In this document: positions 37,154 to 44,493 of the stretch, in pieces
How positions within the stretch are numbered: the stretch's first letter is position 1
Layout of the letters: each line of letters starts with the position of its first letter
DNA from: Sphingopyxis sp.
GTDB taxonomy: Bacteria > Pseudomonadota > Alphaproteobacteria > Sphingomonadales > Sphingomonadaceae
DNA length: 64,000 nt
NCBI GenBank assembly: GCA_016463225.1
Contig: JAEMRT010000006.1
Span: 32,917 to 96,916 of the forward strand
Direction of reading: 5' to 3'
Position numbers and translations under genes: made by a program
Notes under the pieces: model-generated
Databases searched by the model: none
Told to the model about the DNA's origin: nothing
Seen by the model: the letters and a program-made list of their open reading frames with translations, nothing else

Positions 37154-38176
37154 TCACCCTTTCGTCACCTCGACAACAGTCGCCCCGTTCGACCTTTCGC
37201 TGGTTCGAAATCCAACGCCGGTAAACCTATCGATCAATGCCGCCGCAGTCAGCGTGTGCTGGCTCAGTTTTACCGTGGTAAATGCACCCCGCCGCGCAAT
37301 GGCAAAGGGCAGTAGCAGTTGATCCTGCAAATAGGGGCCGGCGAAAGCCTCGCAGGCGAGGTAGCCTGCCATACGCTTGGCCGCCGTCTTAGCAAGGCGC
37401 TCCGCCGGGACGCCGATCTTGCCGAACGCTGAGATGATCTCGGTGACGTTCTCGAAAGCCGCCTCAAGCAGCAGCGCGTTGCCCGGCCCGTGGTCGGCAG
37501 GAAGCTGGCGCGTTGCGAAGGCATCGTCGGGCCAGTCAGCCAAAACCTTGCGCGCGCTTTTCAGCTCGCGGTCGGCTACATCGAAGGGGATGCCGGCGAC
37601 AATCGCCGTCGCTTGTACGCTGCGCAGCGCCCCGCGATCGATGCAGTCGACCGGACGAAGCGGCGCGGGAGCAATATCGACCTCAATCCGGCCGCCGCCC
37701 CGCGGGAAAAAGCCGTGGCGGATCAGCCGCGCCGACACGGCCGGACCCATGCGGTTGACCACCGGCAGCAGCGTGCGTTCGAGGAATTCGAACGGCGGGG
37801 CAGCCATCGCATGCGTTCCGCCCTCGATGACGAGACGCGACGGAGCGTCGGCCAGCATCAGCGGCACGAGGATCGTCTGGAGAACCAGTCCGGTGCTGCC
37901 CGCCGTGCCCACCGCGAAATGATAGTCGCCGGGCGTCACGCGACCGGGGCGGAAGGAAATGCTGTTCGATCCGACGGCCAGCCCGCTGCATTCGGCCGCG
38001 CCGATCACGCACGCCGCTTCGATCGCGGTCACATGCTGGCGCATGAGCCCCGGCTTCTCGCGCCCGCGCCGGATGTTTTCGATCGTGAAGGGCTCGCCGG
38101 TCAGCAGCGAAAGCGCGCAAGCATAGCGCAGCACCTGTCCCCCGCCTTCGCCTTCAGAGCCGTCGATGATGATCAT
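37154..38176 (-). CDS. rtcA: RNA 3'-terminal phosphate cyclase
   Basis: MIIIDGSEGEGGGQVLRYACALSLLTGEPFTIENIRRGREKPGLMRQH; HGFFPRGGG. Confidence 0.95.
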   Translation of the reverse strand: MIIIDGSEGEGGGQVLRYACALSLLTGEPFTIENIRRGREKPGLMRQHVTAIEAACVIGAAECSGLAVGSNSISFRPGRVTPGDYHFAVGTAGSTGLVLQTILVPLMLADAPSRLVIEGGTHAMAAPPFEFLERTLLPVVNRMGPAVSARLIRHGFFPRGGGRIEVDIAPAPLRPVDCIDRGALRSVQATAIVAGIPFDVADRELKSARKVLADWPDDAFATRQLPADHGPGNALLLEAAFENVTEIISAFGKIGVPAERLAKTAAKRMAGYLACEAFAGPYLQDQLLLPFAIARRGAFTTVKLSQHTLTAAALIDRFTGVGFRTSERSNGATVVEVTKG

Positions 38177-38955
38177 TCTTCGTCTACCAGTTCCAGAAAC
38201 AAGTCGTTTGCGTCTGCCGCAAAAGCTTCGATTGGCGGTCGCGCCGGCACCTCGCCGGCACGCGCCAACTCGTCCGCGATCAGCGCGTCGATCTCGGGCA
38301 CGCGTGCGATCGGTCCCGCCTCGCGCGTGTCCGCCTTCATCGCCACCAGCTGCTCGATCTCTTCGATGGCCGAAGACGAAAGGTCAGCCTCCGCCATCAG
38401 CTGCTGCAACTGCATCGGCGGCCGGCGGGATGGATCGCGCCGCAGTACACGGATCGCCAAGGCAGGGCGCAGCGCATAGAAATAGCGCTTTACCGCCACT
38501 TCGCTCTCATCCTGCAACCAGCGCGCAATCGCGGTCCGGCCAAGCTTGGCATAATGCAGCGCAAAACCATTCGGATCGAAGTGGCGGTCCTTCAGTTCAG
38601 CCATCCGCGCGATCACGGGATGGGCATTGCGATACTCGATCGGCGATCCGATCCATTCGGAGAGCACCGAATTGTTGCGCAGCATTAACCCCAGCGCCTT
38701 GCGGATATCCCAGCCGTTCAAGTCGATCTCGTCGACGATCGGCCGCTTGATCACGTCACGCACCGGGCTGAGCGCCAGATAGTCGCGGCGCGGCCGGACA
38801 TAGAGAAAGCGCACGTCATAATCGCTGTCGGGCGACGGGAAACCCCACGCCCGCGACCCCGATTCGATCGCGAGCAACAGGCGCACGCTGTCCTCCGCCT
38901 CGACGGCGGACAGGCGGGTTTCGATTTCGCGGCGCACGGAAGCCCCAATGGTCAT
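38173..38955 (-). CDS. Nucleotidyltransferase of the RlaP type (RNA-repair-associated pol-beta family)
   Basis: IESGSRAWGFPSPDSDYDVRFLYVRPRRDYL; ATGA overlaps on both sides within the rtc operon. Confidence 0.85.
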   Translation of the reverse strand: MTIGASVRREIETRLSAVEAEDSVRLLLAIESGSRAWGFPSPDSDYDVRFLYVRPRRDYLALSPVRDVIKRPIVDEIDLNGWDIRKALGLMLRNNSVLSEWIGSPIEYRNAHPVIARMAELKDRHFDPNGFALHYAKLGRTAIARWLQDESEVAVKRYFYALRPALAIRVLRRDPSRRPPMQLQQLMAEADLSSSAIEEIEQLVAMKADTREAGPIARVPEIDALIADELARAGEVPARPPIEAFAADANDLFLELVDEE

Positions 38956-39374
38956 GTCTCCAACTTTCTCAATTCCGTTCCATCGGGATCCGCGATGAAC
39001 AAATAAGGTGTCCAGCAATCGGTCATCTTCGTGCCAATCTCTGCCTTGCAGGATTTGCAACGAATATTCGGGCCACCACATCCGGAAAGGCCACAGCATC
39101 CGCCGAGACGGCGAGAATCCCCGACCAACTCGGTAAAGGCCTCGACGTCGTCGGGATTGGTCCAAATCTGCGCTACGAAATCGAGCGAATTGGGTTCGTC
39201 GAACGATGTGATGAATGGCTTATCGGATTTATAGGCCGTACCATGATCGGTCACCGGCTGCTGGTCGGCAAGCGTCGGCGCTTCGACCGCCGGATCCTTC
39301 GTCGAAAGAAAATTCAATTCATTCGACAATGGCGCGCCGCAAGTTGTGCAAAATAATTGGCCCTTCATCGTCAT
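38952..39374 (-). CDS. Small Cys-rich hypothetical protein (zinc-ribbon-like) in the rtc operon
   Basis: FCTTCGAPL; RLGGCCGLSGCGGPNIRCKSCKAEIGTKMTDCWTPYLF; ATGA overlap with rlaP-like gene. Confidence 0.75.
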   Translation of the reverse strand: MTMKGQLFCTTCGAPLSNELNFLSTKDPAVEAPTLADQQPVTDHGTAYKSDKPFITSFDEPNSLDFVAQIWTNPDDVEAFTELVGDSRRLGGCCGLSGCGGPNIRCKSCKAEIGTKMTDCWTPYLFIADPDGTELRKLET

Positions 39375-39387
39375 ATCCCCGATAGCG

Positions 39388-39413
39388 GCGTGAAGGGGAT
39401 CACCCCTTCACGC
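39388..39413 (-). promoter_or_regulatory. 11-bp perfect hairpin with the rtcB stop codon in its loop
   Basis: Minus strand GCGTGAAGGGG-TGAT-CCCCTTCACGC. Confidence 0.6.
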
Positions 39414-40626
39414 ACACCACCTGCTTCAGCGTATGAACGATCTCGACGAGGTCGGCCTGCGCCGCCATCACCGCCTCGATCGGCTTATACGCCTTTGGCG
39501 TTTCGTCGATGACGCCTTCGTCCTTACGGCATTCGACGCCAGCGGTGTCAGCGATATGCTCGTCGAGCGTGACGAGCTTTTTCGCCGCGGTCCGGCTCAT
39601 AACCCGGCCCGCACCATGGCTGCAGCTATCGAAGGATTCCGGGTTGCCGAGCCCGCGCACGATGAAGCTTTTTGCCCCCATCGAGCCCGGGATGATCCCC
39701 AGCGTCCCCCTCGCCGCGCGCACCGCCCCCTTGCGGGTGACGAGCACATTCTCGCCGAAGTGGTTCTCGCGCGTCACATAATTGTGATGACAGTTCACCG
39801 CTTCCATCTCGGCCTCGAACGGCTTGGCGATCTGGCGCCGGAGCGCCGCGATCACATTCGCCATCATCATCCGCCGGTTCAGCGCCGCAAAATCCTGCGC
39901 CCAGCCGACCGCCTCGACATATTCGTCGAAATGGTCGGTCCCTTCGGGGAAGTAAGCAAGATCCTCGTCGGGCAGGTTGATGAACCATTTGCGCATGTCC
40001 TGCTTCGCCAGTTCGATGAAGTAGGTGCCGATCGCATTGCCGACGCCGCGCGACCCCGAATGGAGCATCACCCACACCCGCGCATCCTGATCGAGGCAAA
40101 GCTCGATAAAATGGTTGCCCGTTCCGAGCGTCCCCAGATGCACGAGGTTGTTGGTGTTCTTCAGCCGCGGATGCTTCGCGACGAGATGCCCGAAGCGTTC
40201 GGCGAGCGTTGCCCACGCGTCGACGATCGCCGGGGGCGGATCGCCCCACGAACCGGTGTCGCGCTTGCCGCGCCCGACCGAGCGGCCGTGCGGCACCGCC
40301 TGCTCGATCGCACTGCGGATGCCTTCCAGCGTATCGGGCAGGTCGTGCGCCATCAGTGAGGTGCGCGCCGCCATCATGCCGCAGCCGATGTCGACGCCGA
40401 CCGCAGCCGGGATCACCGCACCCTTGGTCGGGATCACCGATCCGACGGTCGCGCCAAGGCCGACATGCACGTCGGGCATCGCCGCGACATGCTTGAACAC
40501 GAACGGCATCCGCGCGGCCTTCGCAAGCTGCGCGCGGGCGCCATCTTCGACCGGGACGCCGCGCGTCCACATCTTGACCGGGCGTCCGCCCTCGACATTG
40601 AGCACTTCGTAAGTCGTCTGGGTCAT
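39400..40626 (-). CDS. rtcB: RNA-splicing ligase RtcB
   Basis: MPDVHVGLGATVGSVIPTKGAVIPAAVGVDIGCGM; HSGSRGVGNAIGTYFIELAKQDM; SHGAGRVMSRTAAK; AAGGAGG ribosome binding site. Confidence 0.96.
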   Translation of the reverse strand: MTQTTYEVLNVEGGRPVKMWTRGVPVEDGARAQLAKAARMPFVFKHVAAMPDVHVGLGATVGSVIPTKGAVIPAAVGVDIGCGMMAARTSLMAHDLPDTLEGIRSAIEQAVPHGRSVGRGKRDTGSWGDPPPAIVDAWATLAERFGHLVAKHPRLKNTNNLVHLGTLGTGNHFIELCLDQDARVWVMLHSGSRGVGNAIGTYFIELAKQDMRKWFINLPDEDLAYFPEGTDHFDEYVEAVGWAQDFAALNRRMMMANVIAALRRQIAKPFEAEMEAVNCHHNYVTRENHFGENVLVTRKGAVRAARGTLGIIPGSMGAKSFIVRGLGNPESFDSCSHGAGRVMSRTAAKKLVTLDEHIADTAGVECRKDEGVIDETPKAYKPIEAVMAAQADLVEIVHTLKQVVCVKG

Positions 40627-40654
40627 CGCTGACCTCCTTCTCTTCATTCATAGG

Positions 40655-40758
40655 TGCCGGCGACGAGTTTTGGCGAGACATTCCGGATTTCTCCGGCGCG
40701 GATTCGAACCGCTAGCCTTTCGGCCTACCCGATGTAGTCCCACCGGCATTCGCCAGCA
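40655..40758 (-). ncRNA. Y-RNA-like ncRNA 3 (minimal form: Y stem, GAAA hairpin, T-arm, GAAA-capped hairpin; no D-arm)
   Basis: Stem TGCTGGCGA/TCGCCGGCA; T-arm GCGGTTCGAATCCGC; CCGGA-GAAA-TCCGG; conserved GGACTACAT and AATGTC. Confidence 0.75.
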
Positions 40759-40768
40759 TGTTTGATAG

Positions 40769-40904
40769 AGGGTCACGGCGACGAGGATTGAAAAGACATT
40801 CGTGCTCTACCAGACTGAGCTACCGCTCGTTTCCGACCGGGCGGGATTCGAACCCGCGACACCGACATTATCAATGTAGTCCTTCCGGCATTCGCCGTGA
40901 TCCT
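40769..40904 (-). ncRNA. Y-RNA-like ncRNA 2 with permuted tRNA-like module, acceptor-like stem capped by GAAA
   Basis: Stem AGGaTCACGGCGA/TCGCCGTGAcCCT; GCGGGTTCGAATCCCGC; CCGGTCG-GAAA-CGAGCGG; D-arm GCTCAGTCTGGTAGAGC. Confidence 0.82.
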
Positions 40905-40918
40905 GTTGGCTCTTCATT

Positions 40919-41080
40919 CGAAGTGTCACGGCGACGAGGTTTAGCAAAGACATTGCCCCTAAGGGCGCCGCTCTATCCGCTAAGCTACAGGCCCGCATCA
41001 TGGTGGACCCGGCGGGATTCGAACCCGCGCCTGCATCGTGACAGGATGTAGTCCTTCCCGGCATTCGCCGTGACACTTCG
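40919..41080 (-). ncRNA. Y-RNA-like ncRNA 1 with permuted tRNA-like module
   Basis: Perfect 16-bp stem CGAAGTGTCACGGCGA/TCGCCGTGACACTTCG; T-arm GCGGGTTCGAATCCCGC; acceptor-like CGGGTCC+ACCA pairing GGGCCTG; D-arm GCTTAGCGGATAGAGC. Confidence 0.85.
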
Positions 41081-41083
41081 TAG

Positions 41084-42631
41084 TCATACCTCCACTTCGT
41101 TGACGATCTGGACCCAGTCGCGCGTTTCGCCAGCAGCGAAGCGCGCCATTGCGCCAAAGACCGCGTCGGTGAAACCACCGACATTCATGATATCCTTCCG
41201 GTCCCTGGCCTGCGTGGTGCCATAGGGCTGGATGTCGATGCAGATCAGCTTCGCGCCCGGGTTACGGACCTTCAGCTTCGTCCACTCGTTCATCGTCGCC
41301 GTGGCGCCACGCCGGGTCGGATCGACCCAGCTTTCATTGTCCGAAACGATCACAACGGTATCGACCTTCGCGCGCTCGGCGTTGAGCCGGGCGAGCGGAG
41401 CCGAGACATTTGTCCCGCCGCCGCCGATCGCTGCCAGCCGCGCGGCGTTGACCGCAAGGCGTGCCTTGGGATCGAGCGCCATGTCGACGACATCGACTTC
41501 GAACGGCATCACCCGCGCCGACCGGTTGGTGCGCAGCATCGCCGCCGCGACCAGCGCCGCGATGTCGATGCAGCGGACCTTCGAGGTCGCGCCCTTGCGG
41601 TGGCCGGTCGCTGCCGAGCCCATCGAGCCCGACACGTCCGGACAGACAATGATGTTGCCCGCCAGCACCGGAACCGTTGCAAGCGACAGTTCGAGTGCCT
41701 TTTCGAGCGATGCCTGGACCGCTAGCGGAACCGCGTCGCCGACCTGATCGAGCGCGATCATCAGGTGATAGGGCGCGGGCTTGATCTTCGCGATCGCCTC
41801 CGCATCCGCCAGCCGTGCCGCGACCGCTTCGGTCACCCCCGCCACGTCGAACGCACCATTGCGCGCCAGCGTGTTGAGGTTCATGCGCAGCGCCTGCCAG
41901 CCCATGCGAACCGCAAGATCGCCCCACTGTTCCGCCGAGAGCGGAAATGCGGTCAGCCATTCGAACGGCACCGGGGGGAGCGGCCCCGAGGGGTCGCGCT
42001 TCCAGGCTTCGAACGCTGCGATCTCTGCCGGCAGCGCAGCGACTTCATAGGGCTTGCCGATCAGCCAGCCGTAGAAGGCGCGTCGCTCCGCCGAAGCCGG
42101 CGCCGGGTGGACCATGCGAACGATGTCGGCGAGGCTCGGGTCGTTGCCCGTCGCTGCCGTCATCAACTGGCGCATCGAAGCCGTTTCCAGCCATTGACGC
42201 ACCAGCCGCTTCGGCCGCGAGCCGAGCGAACGGCGCCCGATCTGGCCCGACCGCATGATCTGCACGAAATTGCGCAGCATGCGGCCGTTATCGATCACGC
42301 GGCCGAATACCGGCACGGCGAGATCGGGATCGGCGACGGTCAGATAAGCGGCGAGCAGCGCCGGCATATCCTTCATCGCACCCGACTGGCGCGCATAGAT
42401 CGCCGCCTTGGCAACAAACCCCGGCGACACCGCTTGCGCCGCCGACAGGACATCGGCGAGCTGCGCGTCGGCGCCCGAATAGAAGCCATCCGACAGCGTG
42501 CCGGTCGCGGCCAGCTGTGCAAGCTTCGCTTCGGCGCCATAGGCATAGGCCGCGCCGCCGGCTTCATTCACCGTGTCGGTGCGCGGCAGGAAGCGCGAGA
42601 GCGCCGTGGAAAACAGGGACTTGTTGGCCAT
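41084..42631 (-). CDS. rsr: TROVE domain protein, Ro60 ortholog (Rsr)
   Basis: HEAT-like TROVE region AAIYARQSGAMKDMPALLAAYLTV; vWA-like IIVCPDVSGSMGSAATGHR; adjacent Y-RNA-like genes and rtcB. Confidence 0.92.
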   Translation of the reverse strand: MANKSLFSTALSRFLPRTDTVNEAGGAAYAYGAEAKLAQLAATGTLSDGFYSGADAQLADVLSAAQAVSPGFVAKAAIYARQSGAMKDMPALLAAYLTVADPDLAVPVFGRVIDNGRMLRNFVQIMRSGQIGRRSLGSRPKRLVRQWLETASMRQLMTAATGNDPSLADIVRMVHPAPASAERRAFYGWLIGKPYEVAALPAEIAAFEAWKRDPSGPLPPVPFEWLTAFPLSAEQWGDLAVRMGWQALRMNLNTLARNGAFDVAGVTEAVAARLADAEAIAKIKPAPYHLMIALDQVGDAVPLAVQASLEKALELSLATVPVLAGNIIVCPDVSGSMGSAATGHRKGATSKVRCIDIAALVAAAMLRTNRSARVMPFEVDVVDMALDPKARLAVNAARLAAIGGGGTNVSAPLARLNAERAKVDTVVIVSDNESWVDPTRRGATATMNEWTKLKVRNPGAKLICIDIQPYGTTQARDRKDIMNVGGFTDAVFGAMARFAAGETRDWVQIVNEVEV

Positions 42632-42739
42632 CGTCCAACTCCTTCGAAATCATTCCGGATCCTCGGGGGCGGCCAGCCCATTCCGGCCGCCCCTTCGTTC
42701 CACTGTGCCGGGAGACGTGAGCCCCGACGCAAACATCGT

Positions 42740-42757
42740 TGCAGAAGACGTGCCAAA
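42740..42757 (-). promoter_or_regulatory. Sigma-54 (-24/-12) promoter for the rsr-Y-rtc operon
   Basis: Minus strand TTTGGCACGTCTTCTGCA; GG-N10-GC spacing, near consensus TGGCACGNNNNTTGCW. Confidence 0.8.
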
Positions 42758-42800: not shown

Positions 42801-42897
42801 GTAATAAGATTATAAATCTTCTTGAGATGTGGAAACGAGGCGTTAGACCTATATGATTATCTTGTATCGTAATTTATCCTAGAATATAAGTGTGATC

Positions 42898-44493
42898 ATG
42901 AAGCCCACTACCGTCATCGGATTTCTCGGCTCGACTCTCGATGCCGCCAAATTCGGACCCTCGCGCTGGAACAAGTGGCGGCCGACGGTCAGCATCTGCA
43001 TGCAGGAAGACTTGCGGGTCGATCGCTTCATCCTGCTGCACGGCCGCTATCACAGCCGTCTCGCTGAATATGTGGCCGATGATATCCGTGACATATCGCC
43101 CGAGACTGAGGTCGTCCCACAACTCCTCGACTTCGACGACGCCTGGGATTTCGAGGAAGTTTATGGAAAGCTGCTCGACTTCGCGCGCGCCTTTCCCTTC
43201 GACCCCGACAATCAAGATTATCTGGTCCACATCACGACCGGCACCCATGTCGCGCAAATTTGCCTCTTTCTCCTGACTGAGGCGCGCTATCTGCCCGGGC
43301 GGCTGCTCCAGACCCAGCCGCAGCGTGGCGCACCGCAGCCGATCGGGACGTGGAGCGCCATCGACCTCGACCTGTCGCGTTACGACAGCATCGCGACGCG
43401 CTTTGCCGAGGCGAGCGCCGAGAGCACGAGCTTTCTGAAAAGCGGCATCGAGACGCGCAATGCCGCCTTCAACCGAATGATCGAGGAGATTGAGCAGGTC
43501 GCGGTACGCAGCCGCGCGCCGATCCTGCTGATGGGTCCGACCGGCGCCGGCAAGAGCCAGCTCTCGCGCAAGATTTACGAGCTCAAGAAGCTGCGCCACC
43601 AGATCGCGGGCCCTTTCGTCGAAGTTAATTGCGCGACGTTGAAGGGCGACAGCGCGATGTCGGCGCTGTTCGGCCACCGCAAGGGCGCTTTTACCGGCGC
43701 GGCACAGGATCGCCCCGGCCTGCTCAAGTCGGCCGACAAGGGGTTGCTATTCCTCGATGAAATTGGCGAGCTTGGCCTCGACGAGCAGGCGATGATCCTG
43801 CGCGCGATCGAGGAAGGACGCTTCCTTCCCGTGGGCGCCGACAGCGAAGCGAAGAGCGAATTCCAGCTGATCGCCGGCACCAACCGCGACCTCGTCCGCG
43901 AGGTTGTCGCCGGTCGCTTCCGCGAAGATCTGTTCGCTCGCCTCAACCTGTGGACCTTCAGCCTGCCGGGGCTTGCGGCGCGCCGCGAGGATATCGCCCC
44001 TAATCTCGACTACGAGCTGGAGCGCTTCGCCGAACGCGAAGGGGCACGGGTCACCTTCAACAAGGAGGCGCGCGACAAATTTTTGAGCTTTGCCGAGAAC
44101 TCGGCCGCGCTGTGGAAAGGCAATTTCCGCGACCTTGCCGCCAGCGTCACCCGCATGGCAACGCTCAGCGCGACAGGGCGCATCGATTCCGATGCGGTCG
44201 CCCTCGAGACGGGCAGGCTGCGGTCGCTTTGGTCGACCGACGATGCTCAGGGCGATGCGCTCGACCATTTGCTATCGTCCGACCAGCTCAAACGGATCGA
44301 TCCCTTCGATCGGGTTCAGCTCGGCTATGTTGTCGATATCTGTCGTCAGAGCGCTAGCCTTTCGGCGGCGGGGCGTTCGCTGTTTTCGGCGTCGCGCGAA
44401 GAGCGTCGATCAACCAACGATGCGGACCGGTTGCGGAAATATCTCGCGCGCTTCGATCTCGACTGGAGCATTGTCACGGCAAGCAGCGATTAA
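42898..44493 (+). CDS. rtcR: Sigma-54-dependent transcriptional activator RtcR
   Basis: N-terminal KPTTVIGFLGSTLDAAKFGPSRWNKWRPTVSICMQ (RtcR/CARF-like); GPTGAGKSQL Walker A; GAFTGA motif. Confidence 0.93.
   Translation: MKPTTVIGFLGSTLDAAKFGPSRWNKWRPTVSICMQEDLRVDRFILLHGRYHSRLAEYVADDIRDISPETEVVPQLLDFDDAWDFEEVYGKLLDFARAFPFDPDNQDYLVHITTGTHVAQICLFLLTEARYLPGRLLQTQPQRGAPQPIGTWSAIDLDLSRYDSIATRFAEASAESTSFLKSGIETRNAAFNRMIEEIEQVAVRSRAPILLMGPTGAGKSQLSRKIYELKKLRHQIAGPFVEVNCATLKGDSAMSALFGHRKGAFTGAAQDRPGLLKSADKGLLFLDEIGELGLDEQAMILRAIEEGRFLPVGADSEAKSEFQLIAGTNRDLVREVVAGRFREDLFARLNLWTFSLPGLAARREDIAPNLDYELERFAEREGARVTFNKEARDKFLSFAENSAALWKGNFRDLAASVTRMATLSATGRIDSDAVALETGRLRSLWSTDDAQGDALDHLLSSDQLKRIDPFDRVQLGYVVDICRQSASLSAAGRSLFSASREERRSTNDADRLRKYLARFDLDWSIVTASSD

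Follow-up and report, generated by a model that had tools for sequence, protein, structure and literature searches.

An ACCA-Bearing, tRNA-Like Y RNA Unit in the RNA-Repair Operon of a Sphingopyxis Genome

The DNA analyzed here, a 64,000-nt stretch from Sphingopyxis sp. that we call the window, carries three Y-RNA units between rsr and rtcB. We put at roughly 0.83 the probability that the first of these, unit 1, is one of three cotranscribed Y RNAs of an rsr-yrl-rtcB operon, joining an Rsr-binding stem to a tRNA-like head that acts as a tether or decoy. What is established here is the operon context, the homology to Y RNAs, the covariation of the stems, and a moderate constraint on an ACCA motif in the acceptor loop. 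The initial annotation took unit 1 for a circularly permuted tRNA whose ends are fused and which is open elsewhere. The tRNA-like module, its permuted order, its fused acceptor ends, and the encoded ACCA all stand, but the module is the head of a Y RNA and not a free tRNA; the opening also exists, but it is the place where a Y-RNA stem replaces the anticodon arm, as in the published YrlA architecture. Because bacterial Y RNAs have already been described as circular permutations of tRNA (PMC11472068), the permuted-tRNA reading is correct but the kind of molecule is not new.

Unit 1 and Its Operon

Unit 1 is composed of the following elements (evidence in parentheses).

40925..41074, minus strand: unit 1, YrlA-like Y RNA with ACCA in the acceptor loop (RF02553, model R1, fold)
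41065..41074, minus strand: putative basal Ro60-binding stem, 5′ strand GUCACGGCGA (partner 40934-40925)
40925..40934, minus strand: basal stem, 3′ strand UCGCCGUGAC (homologue pairing, fold)
41052..41056, minus strand: second Y-stem helix, 5′ strand AAGGA (partner 40950-40946)
40946..40950, minus strand: second Y-stem helix, 3′ strand UCUUU (homologue pairing)
41012..41028, minus strand: T-arm GCGGG-UUCGAAU-CCCGC (sequence; 100% paired in homologues)
41005..41011, minus strand: acceptor 3′ strand CGGGUCC, tRNA positions 66-72 (100% paired, 4/7 pairs compensated)
41001..41004, minus strand: ACCA, discriminator plus CCA, in the acceptor loop (exact in 20/29 orthologous units)
40995..41000, minus strand: 6-nt linker UGAUGC (varies among homologues, one U invariant)
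40988..40994, minus strand: acceptor 5′ strand GGGCCUG, positions 1-7, with G3:U70 (homologue pairing)
40970..40987, minus strand: UA (positions 8-9, 40987-40986) and D-arm (40985-40970), GCUUAGCGGAUAGAGC (D-arm helix 100% paired in homologues)
40955..40966, minus strand: extra hairpin GCCC-UUAG-GGGC (fold; present in a subset of homologues)

The order first annotated (T-arm, acceptor 3′ strand, ACCA, linker, acceptor 5′ strand, TA, D-arm) matches the sequence exactly over 41028-40970 on the minus strand, and the 7-bp CGGGTCC/GGGCCTG stem with its two G·U pairs is present in the single-sequence minimum-energy fold. In this order, 3′ half before 5′ half with a short sequence between them, unit 1 resembles the permuted tRNA genes of algae and archaea, one of which, from Thermofilum pendens, likewise encodes CCA between the halves. 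That unit 1 is itself such a gene, with a transcript rejoined into a decoding tRNA, is barely credible: the half order and the acceptor loop agree, but the transcripts of those genes become complete tRNAs, whereas the sequence of unit 1 contains neither an anticodon arm nor a variable loop, and a conserved, covarying Ro60-type stem fills the break. A decoding tRNA is ruled out by the missing anticodon arm, which leaves the cloverleaf incomplete; ARAGORN predicts no ordinary tRNA anywhere in the 64,000-nt window.

Judged from its sequence, unit 1 is a bacterial Y RNA of the YrlA type, the first of three, and the permuted module is its effector module. Rfam family RF02553 (YrlA) matches unit 1 at 41071-40925 with 36.3 bits (E 2.7e-6), which is significant yet far from the family cut-off of 69 and, for unit 1 on its own, counts against the Y-RNA reading. 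Unit 3 is in the same position, whereas unit 2 exceeds the cut-off.

40772..40898, minus strand: unit 2, a standard YrlA Y RNA with a GAAA-closed acceptor stem (RF02553, 78 bits)
40654..40756, minus strand: unit 3, a Y RNA (RF02553, 36.6 bits; sequence)

The head of unit 3 is a minihelix, in which the T-arm is joined to a hairpin-closed mini-acceptor and there is no D-arm. Unit 1 begins about 10 nt past the rsr stop codon, and Y units adjoin rsr likewise in 78 relatives. As expected of a Y RNA, a long stem with conserved GGCGAAUGC...UCGUCGCC joins its ends, and as expected of YrlA it carries a T-arm, a closed acceptor stem, and a D-arm. With YrlA (RF02553; Salmonella YrlA, PDB 6CU1) unit 1 has in common the rsr adjacency, the Ro60-type basal stem, and the permuted T-arm/acceptor/D-arm module. 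It differs in having a 10-nt acceptor loop that starts with ACCA, where the Rfam consensus loop is 3 nt, in the extra hairpin 3′ of the D-arm, and in being one of three units in the window, with two to six in relatives.

The three units occupy the rsr-rtcB gap; RlaP and rtcA lie downstream of rtcB, and rtcR is divergent.

41084..42631, minus strand: rsr, Ro60 orthologue (Pfam vWA_Ro60 1.5e-15, TROVE 1.7e-4)
39400..40647, minus strand: rtcB RNA ligase (Pfam RtcB 1.2e-127)
38173..39165, minus strand: RlaP, RNA-repair nucleotidyltransferase (Pfam RlaP 4.1e-75, residues 78-323)
37154..38176, minus strand: rtcA RNA 3′-phosphate cyclase (Pfam RTC 5.9e-71; NCBIfam)
42892..44493, plus strand: rtcR, sigma-54 activator with RtcR regulatory domain (Pfam RtcR 1.8e-81, Sigma54_activat 5.7e-49)
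42740..42755, minus strand: sigma-54-like promoter TGGCACGTCTTCTGCA, upstream of rsr (similar site in relatives)

The NCBIfam Rsr match of rsr (4.4e-17) is under that model's cut-off, and the true start of RlaP is probably internal to the annotated frame. Of 68 related loci, 67 have a similar sigma-54-like site ahead of rsr. Salmonella has an rsr-yrl-rtcBA RNA-repair operon (PMC7790460), and its rsr-yrlBA-rtcBA arrangement agrees with the window in gene content, gene order, and control by RtcR and sigma-54; the window differs in its three Y units, relatives having up to six with several tRNA permutations, and in the added RlaP gene.

Several other features were observed in the operon. At 72 of 78 loci the leader of rsr contains a strong hairpin, GGGGCGGCYGGAAUGGGCYGGCCGCCCC (42630-42700, minus strand, in the window). 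At 19 of 78 loci, a T-arm and CCA arranged as in an ordinary tRNA lie between the sigma-54-like site and the start codon of rsr, close to the latter (for example L110:4905-4983, L130:4908-4984, and L134:4907-4984). The majority of these leader elements resemble a whole tRNA-Pro(UGG); at locus L135 the anticodon arm is disrupted, so that at least this element is a mimic of tRNA within the leader of the mRNA. Between rtcB and RlaP, a cysteine-rich reading frame of 140 aa (38952-39374, minus strand) has no Pfam or NCBIfam match.

Stem Covariation and Variation of ACCA

The structure was assessed in 24 homologous units from Sphingopyxis, Novosphingobium, Qipengyuania, Erythrobacter, and others. 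Across the whole of unit 1, 99.6% of cells are paired and 11 of 28 pairs have changed on both sides. None of 500 shuffles reaches the real structure, and slid partners are 39-50% paired, a control in which the real structure is favored by having been drawn on the window sequence; the compensatory changes are independent of that advantage. The basal stem is 98.8% paired over the seven pairs counted in homologues, and the second Y-stem helix has double changes at three of five pairs. The acceptor helix is paired in every homologue. A lack of compensatory changes in CGGGTCC/GGGCCTG among homologous loci had been named beforehand as grounds for giving up this stem; the stem survived the comparison, with four of its seven pairs compensated, and these changes are apparently described here for the first time.

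Among 98 modules arranged as in YrlA, 16 have ACCA immediately behind the acceptor 3′ strand, the rest closing with GAAA, TTCG, or other loops. Within the class of unit 1 (29 rsr-linked units) ACCA is exact in 20 and altered in nine that retain the stem (ATCA, ATAA, ACTA, AACA, GCCA, GTCC, and ACAT). By Fitch parsimony on an rsr tree, the four ACCA columns have changed 1, 4, 3, and 2 times and three linker columns 10, 7, and 11 times; the fourth linker column, a U, is unchanged. ACCA therefore appears moderately constrained yet dispensable, and its slower change relative to most of the linker counts against mere decoration.

The same rates bear on the idea that ACCA is a functionless fossil of the source tRNA gene or genes, left where a 3′ half and CCA were followed by a spacer and the 5′ half of the next tRNA. 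We regard this as possible, though on balance doubtful. Both halves of unit 1 find their best host match in the same tRNA, which has a CAU anticodon (GGGCCTG...CGGGCCCACCA), a weak hint at the origin of unit 1; the match is itself weak, however, with the D half scoring 15 of 25. Tandem tRNA genes, arranged as T-arm-CCA-spacer-D-arm, also seem to resemble unit 1 closely enough to give weak matches to model R1. In a wider search with R1, which covered 401 genomes at the order level and 296 at the class level, matches below about 60 bits were left unused, being probably mostly such tandem genes, as judged from coordinates and not individually. Against the fossil, a neutral loop would be expected to change at the rate of the linker, and the ACCA columns have changed less than three of the four linker columns.

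A Closed or a Cut Acceptor Loop

Linker cleavage has been proposed for permuted tmRNA and for permuted tRNA precursors. If the linker of unit 1 were cut in the cell, by RNase P at the 5′ strand and, at the CCA, by tRNase Z or by exonucleases, the RNA would fall into two pieces and expose a CCA end open to charging, repair, or sensing. Ro60 would then hold a two-piece, CCA-ended mimic of tRNA, perhaps chargeable with alanine by way of G3:U70, as a sensor or bait, and the array would be a panel of differently permuted mimics facing tRNA-attacking or tRNA-processing enzymes. We consider this improbable. In its favor, ACCA and the linker occupy the site of the processed spacer of permuted tmRNA, to which Rfam finds a weak match (tmRNA_permuted, 26.8 bits; cut-off 47); ACCA is exact in 20 of the 29 orthologues and has changed less than three of the four linker columns; the operon encodes the RlaP nucleotidyltransferase; and G3:U70, which in tmRNA determines alanine identity (PMC3985003), is found in 22 of the 29 units, including that of the window. 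However, the other seven units have A:U, G:C, or C:G at this pair, so alanine identity was rejected as a conserved function; nine orthologues have lost exact ACCA with the stem kept; and the linker is only 4-6 nt long. A closed loop is the usual arrangement: in other YrlA-type units the acceptor stem mostly ends in GAAA, TTCG, or another short loop. Because ACCA and G3:U70 vary as well, cleavage to a CCA end is no requirement of the family. Cleavage in unit 1 itself is possible, with no support from invariance.

The likeness to the two-piece permuted tmRNA of Alphaproteobacteria extends to the T-arm, acceptor 3′ strand, CCA, spacer, acceptor 5′ strand, and G3:U70. Unit 1 differs from it in lacking a tag frame and pseudoknots, in being flanked by a Y-RNA stem, and in that its G3:U70 is not invariant; with the Rfam match confined to the acceptor part, permuted tmRNA was rejected. 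Ordinary tmRNA was also ruled out, its Rfam matches falling far under the cut-off, and the host genome has a separate alpha_tmRNA (G000:C107).

Under the preferred Y-RNA reading, we infer that unit 1 is transcribed with the operon and that its ends pair into the basal stem, where the intact RNA would bind Rsr. The tRNA-like head may be modified, pseudouridine and dihydrouridine being the marks expected of a YrlA-type RNA, and recognized by tRNA enzymes, may tether another protein, or both; the tethered protein would be PNPase, as in studied Y RNAs, one of which is modified by DusA and TruB and ties Rsr to PNPase (PMC8394870). Unit 1 could accordingly be pictured as a tether or as a tRNA decoy. 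In Salmonella, damage to tRNA switches the operon on, and the YrlA head has been suggested as a possible inhibitor of a tRNA-cutting nuclease (PMC7790460). ACCA would add tRNA likeness to a loop that stays closed, and linker cleavage would be unnecessary.

Y-RNA Arrays and a Second Permutation

Each of the 78 related rsr loci scanned has an array of two to six Y units. One class is opened in the D-loop and runs in the order D-stem 3′ strand, short-looped anticodon stem, AGGUC, T-arm, hairpin-closed short acceptor, UA, and D-stem 5′ strand (for example L085:7080-7205, L088:7042-7170, and many others). The class is a second circular permutation of tRNA, comprising a whole cloverleaf with the anticodon loop replaced. 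The pattern gave 50 candidates in 80 regions, or 47 once three of another class were removed, and none in the window. Covariation supports this structure: in the 37 aligned members, 98.1% of cells are paired and 16 of 33 pairs have changed on both sides; all five pairs of the anticodon stem covary. The replacement of the anticodon loop would fit an uncuttable decoy. Further units in the arrays include T-arm/acceptor minihelices like unit 3 of the window, hairpins with no T-arm, and tRNA-Glu-like heads; the automatic counts of these classes are approximate, a few of the units assigned being spurious and lying within rtcB.

The ACCA unit is the first of three in the window and the third in the array in all 15 other cases, and it is absent from the close relatives G028, G040, G037, G023, G059, and G027. 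From this shift of position and these absences, it follows that the arrays have been rearranged.

Y RNAs that mimic tRNA are known. We did not find the ACCA-bearing closed acceptor, the multipermutation arrays, or the D-loop-opened cloverleaf in the part of the Y-RNA literature consulted, and we cautiously describe all three as apparently new. The arrays amount to a natural experiment in which one type of Ro60 stem is combined, side by side, with many heads: the CCA-bearing permuted tRNA, the standard YrlA head, minihelices, hairpin-only heads, and the D-loop-opened cloverleaf (47 of 80 arrays). Head-by-head protein partners would bear on the purpose of the mimicry, be it a nuclease tether, the recruitment of tRNA-modifying enzymes, or a decoy for toxins that cut tRNA. 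In one array (genome G139, L062:2973-3047), ARAGORN predicts a gene for tRNA-Asn(GUU) between Y units.
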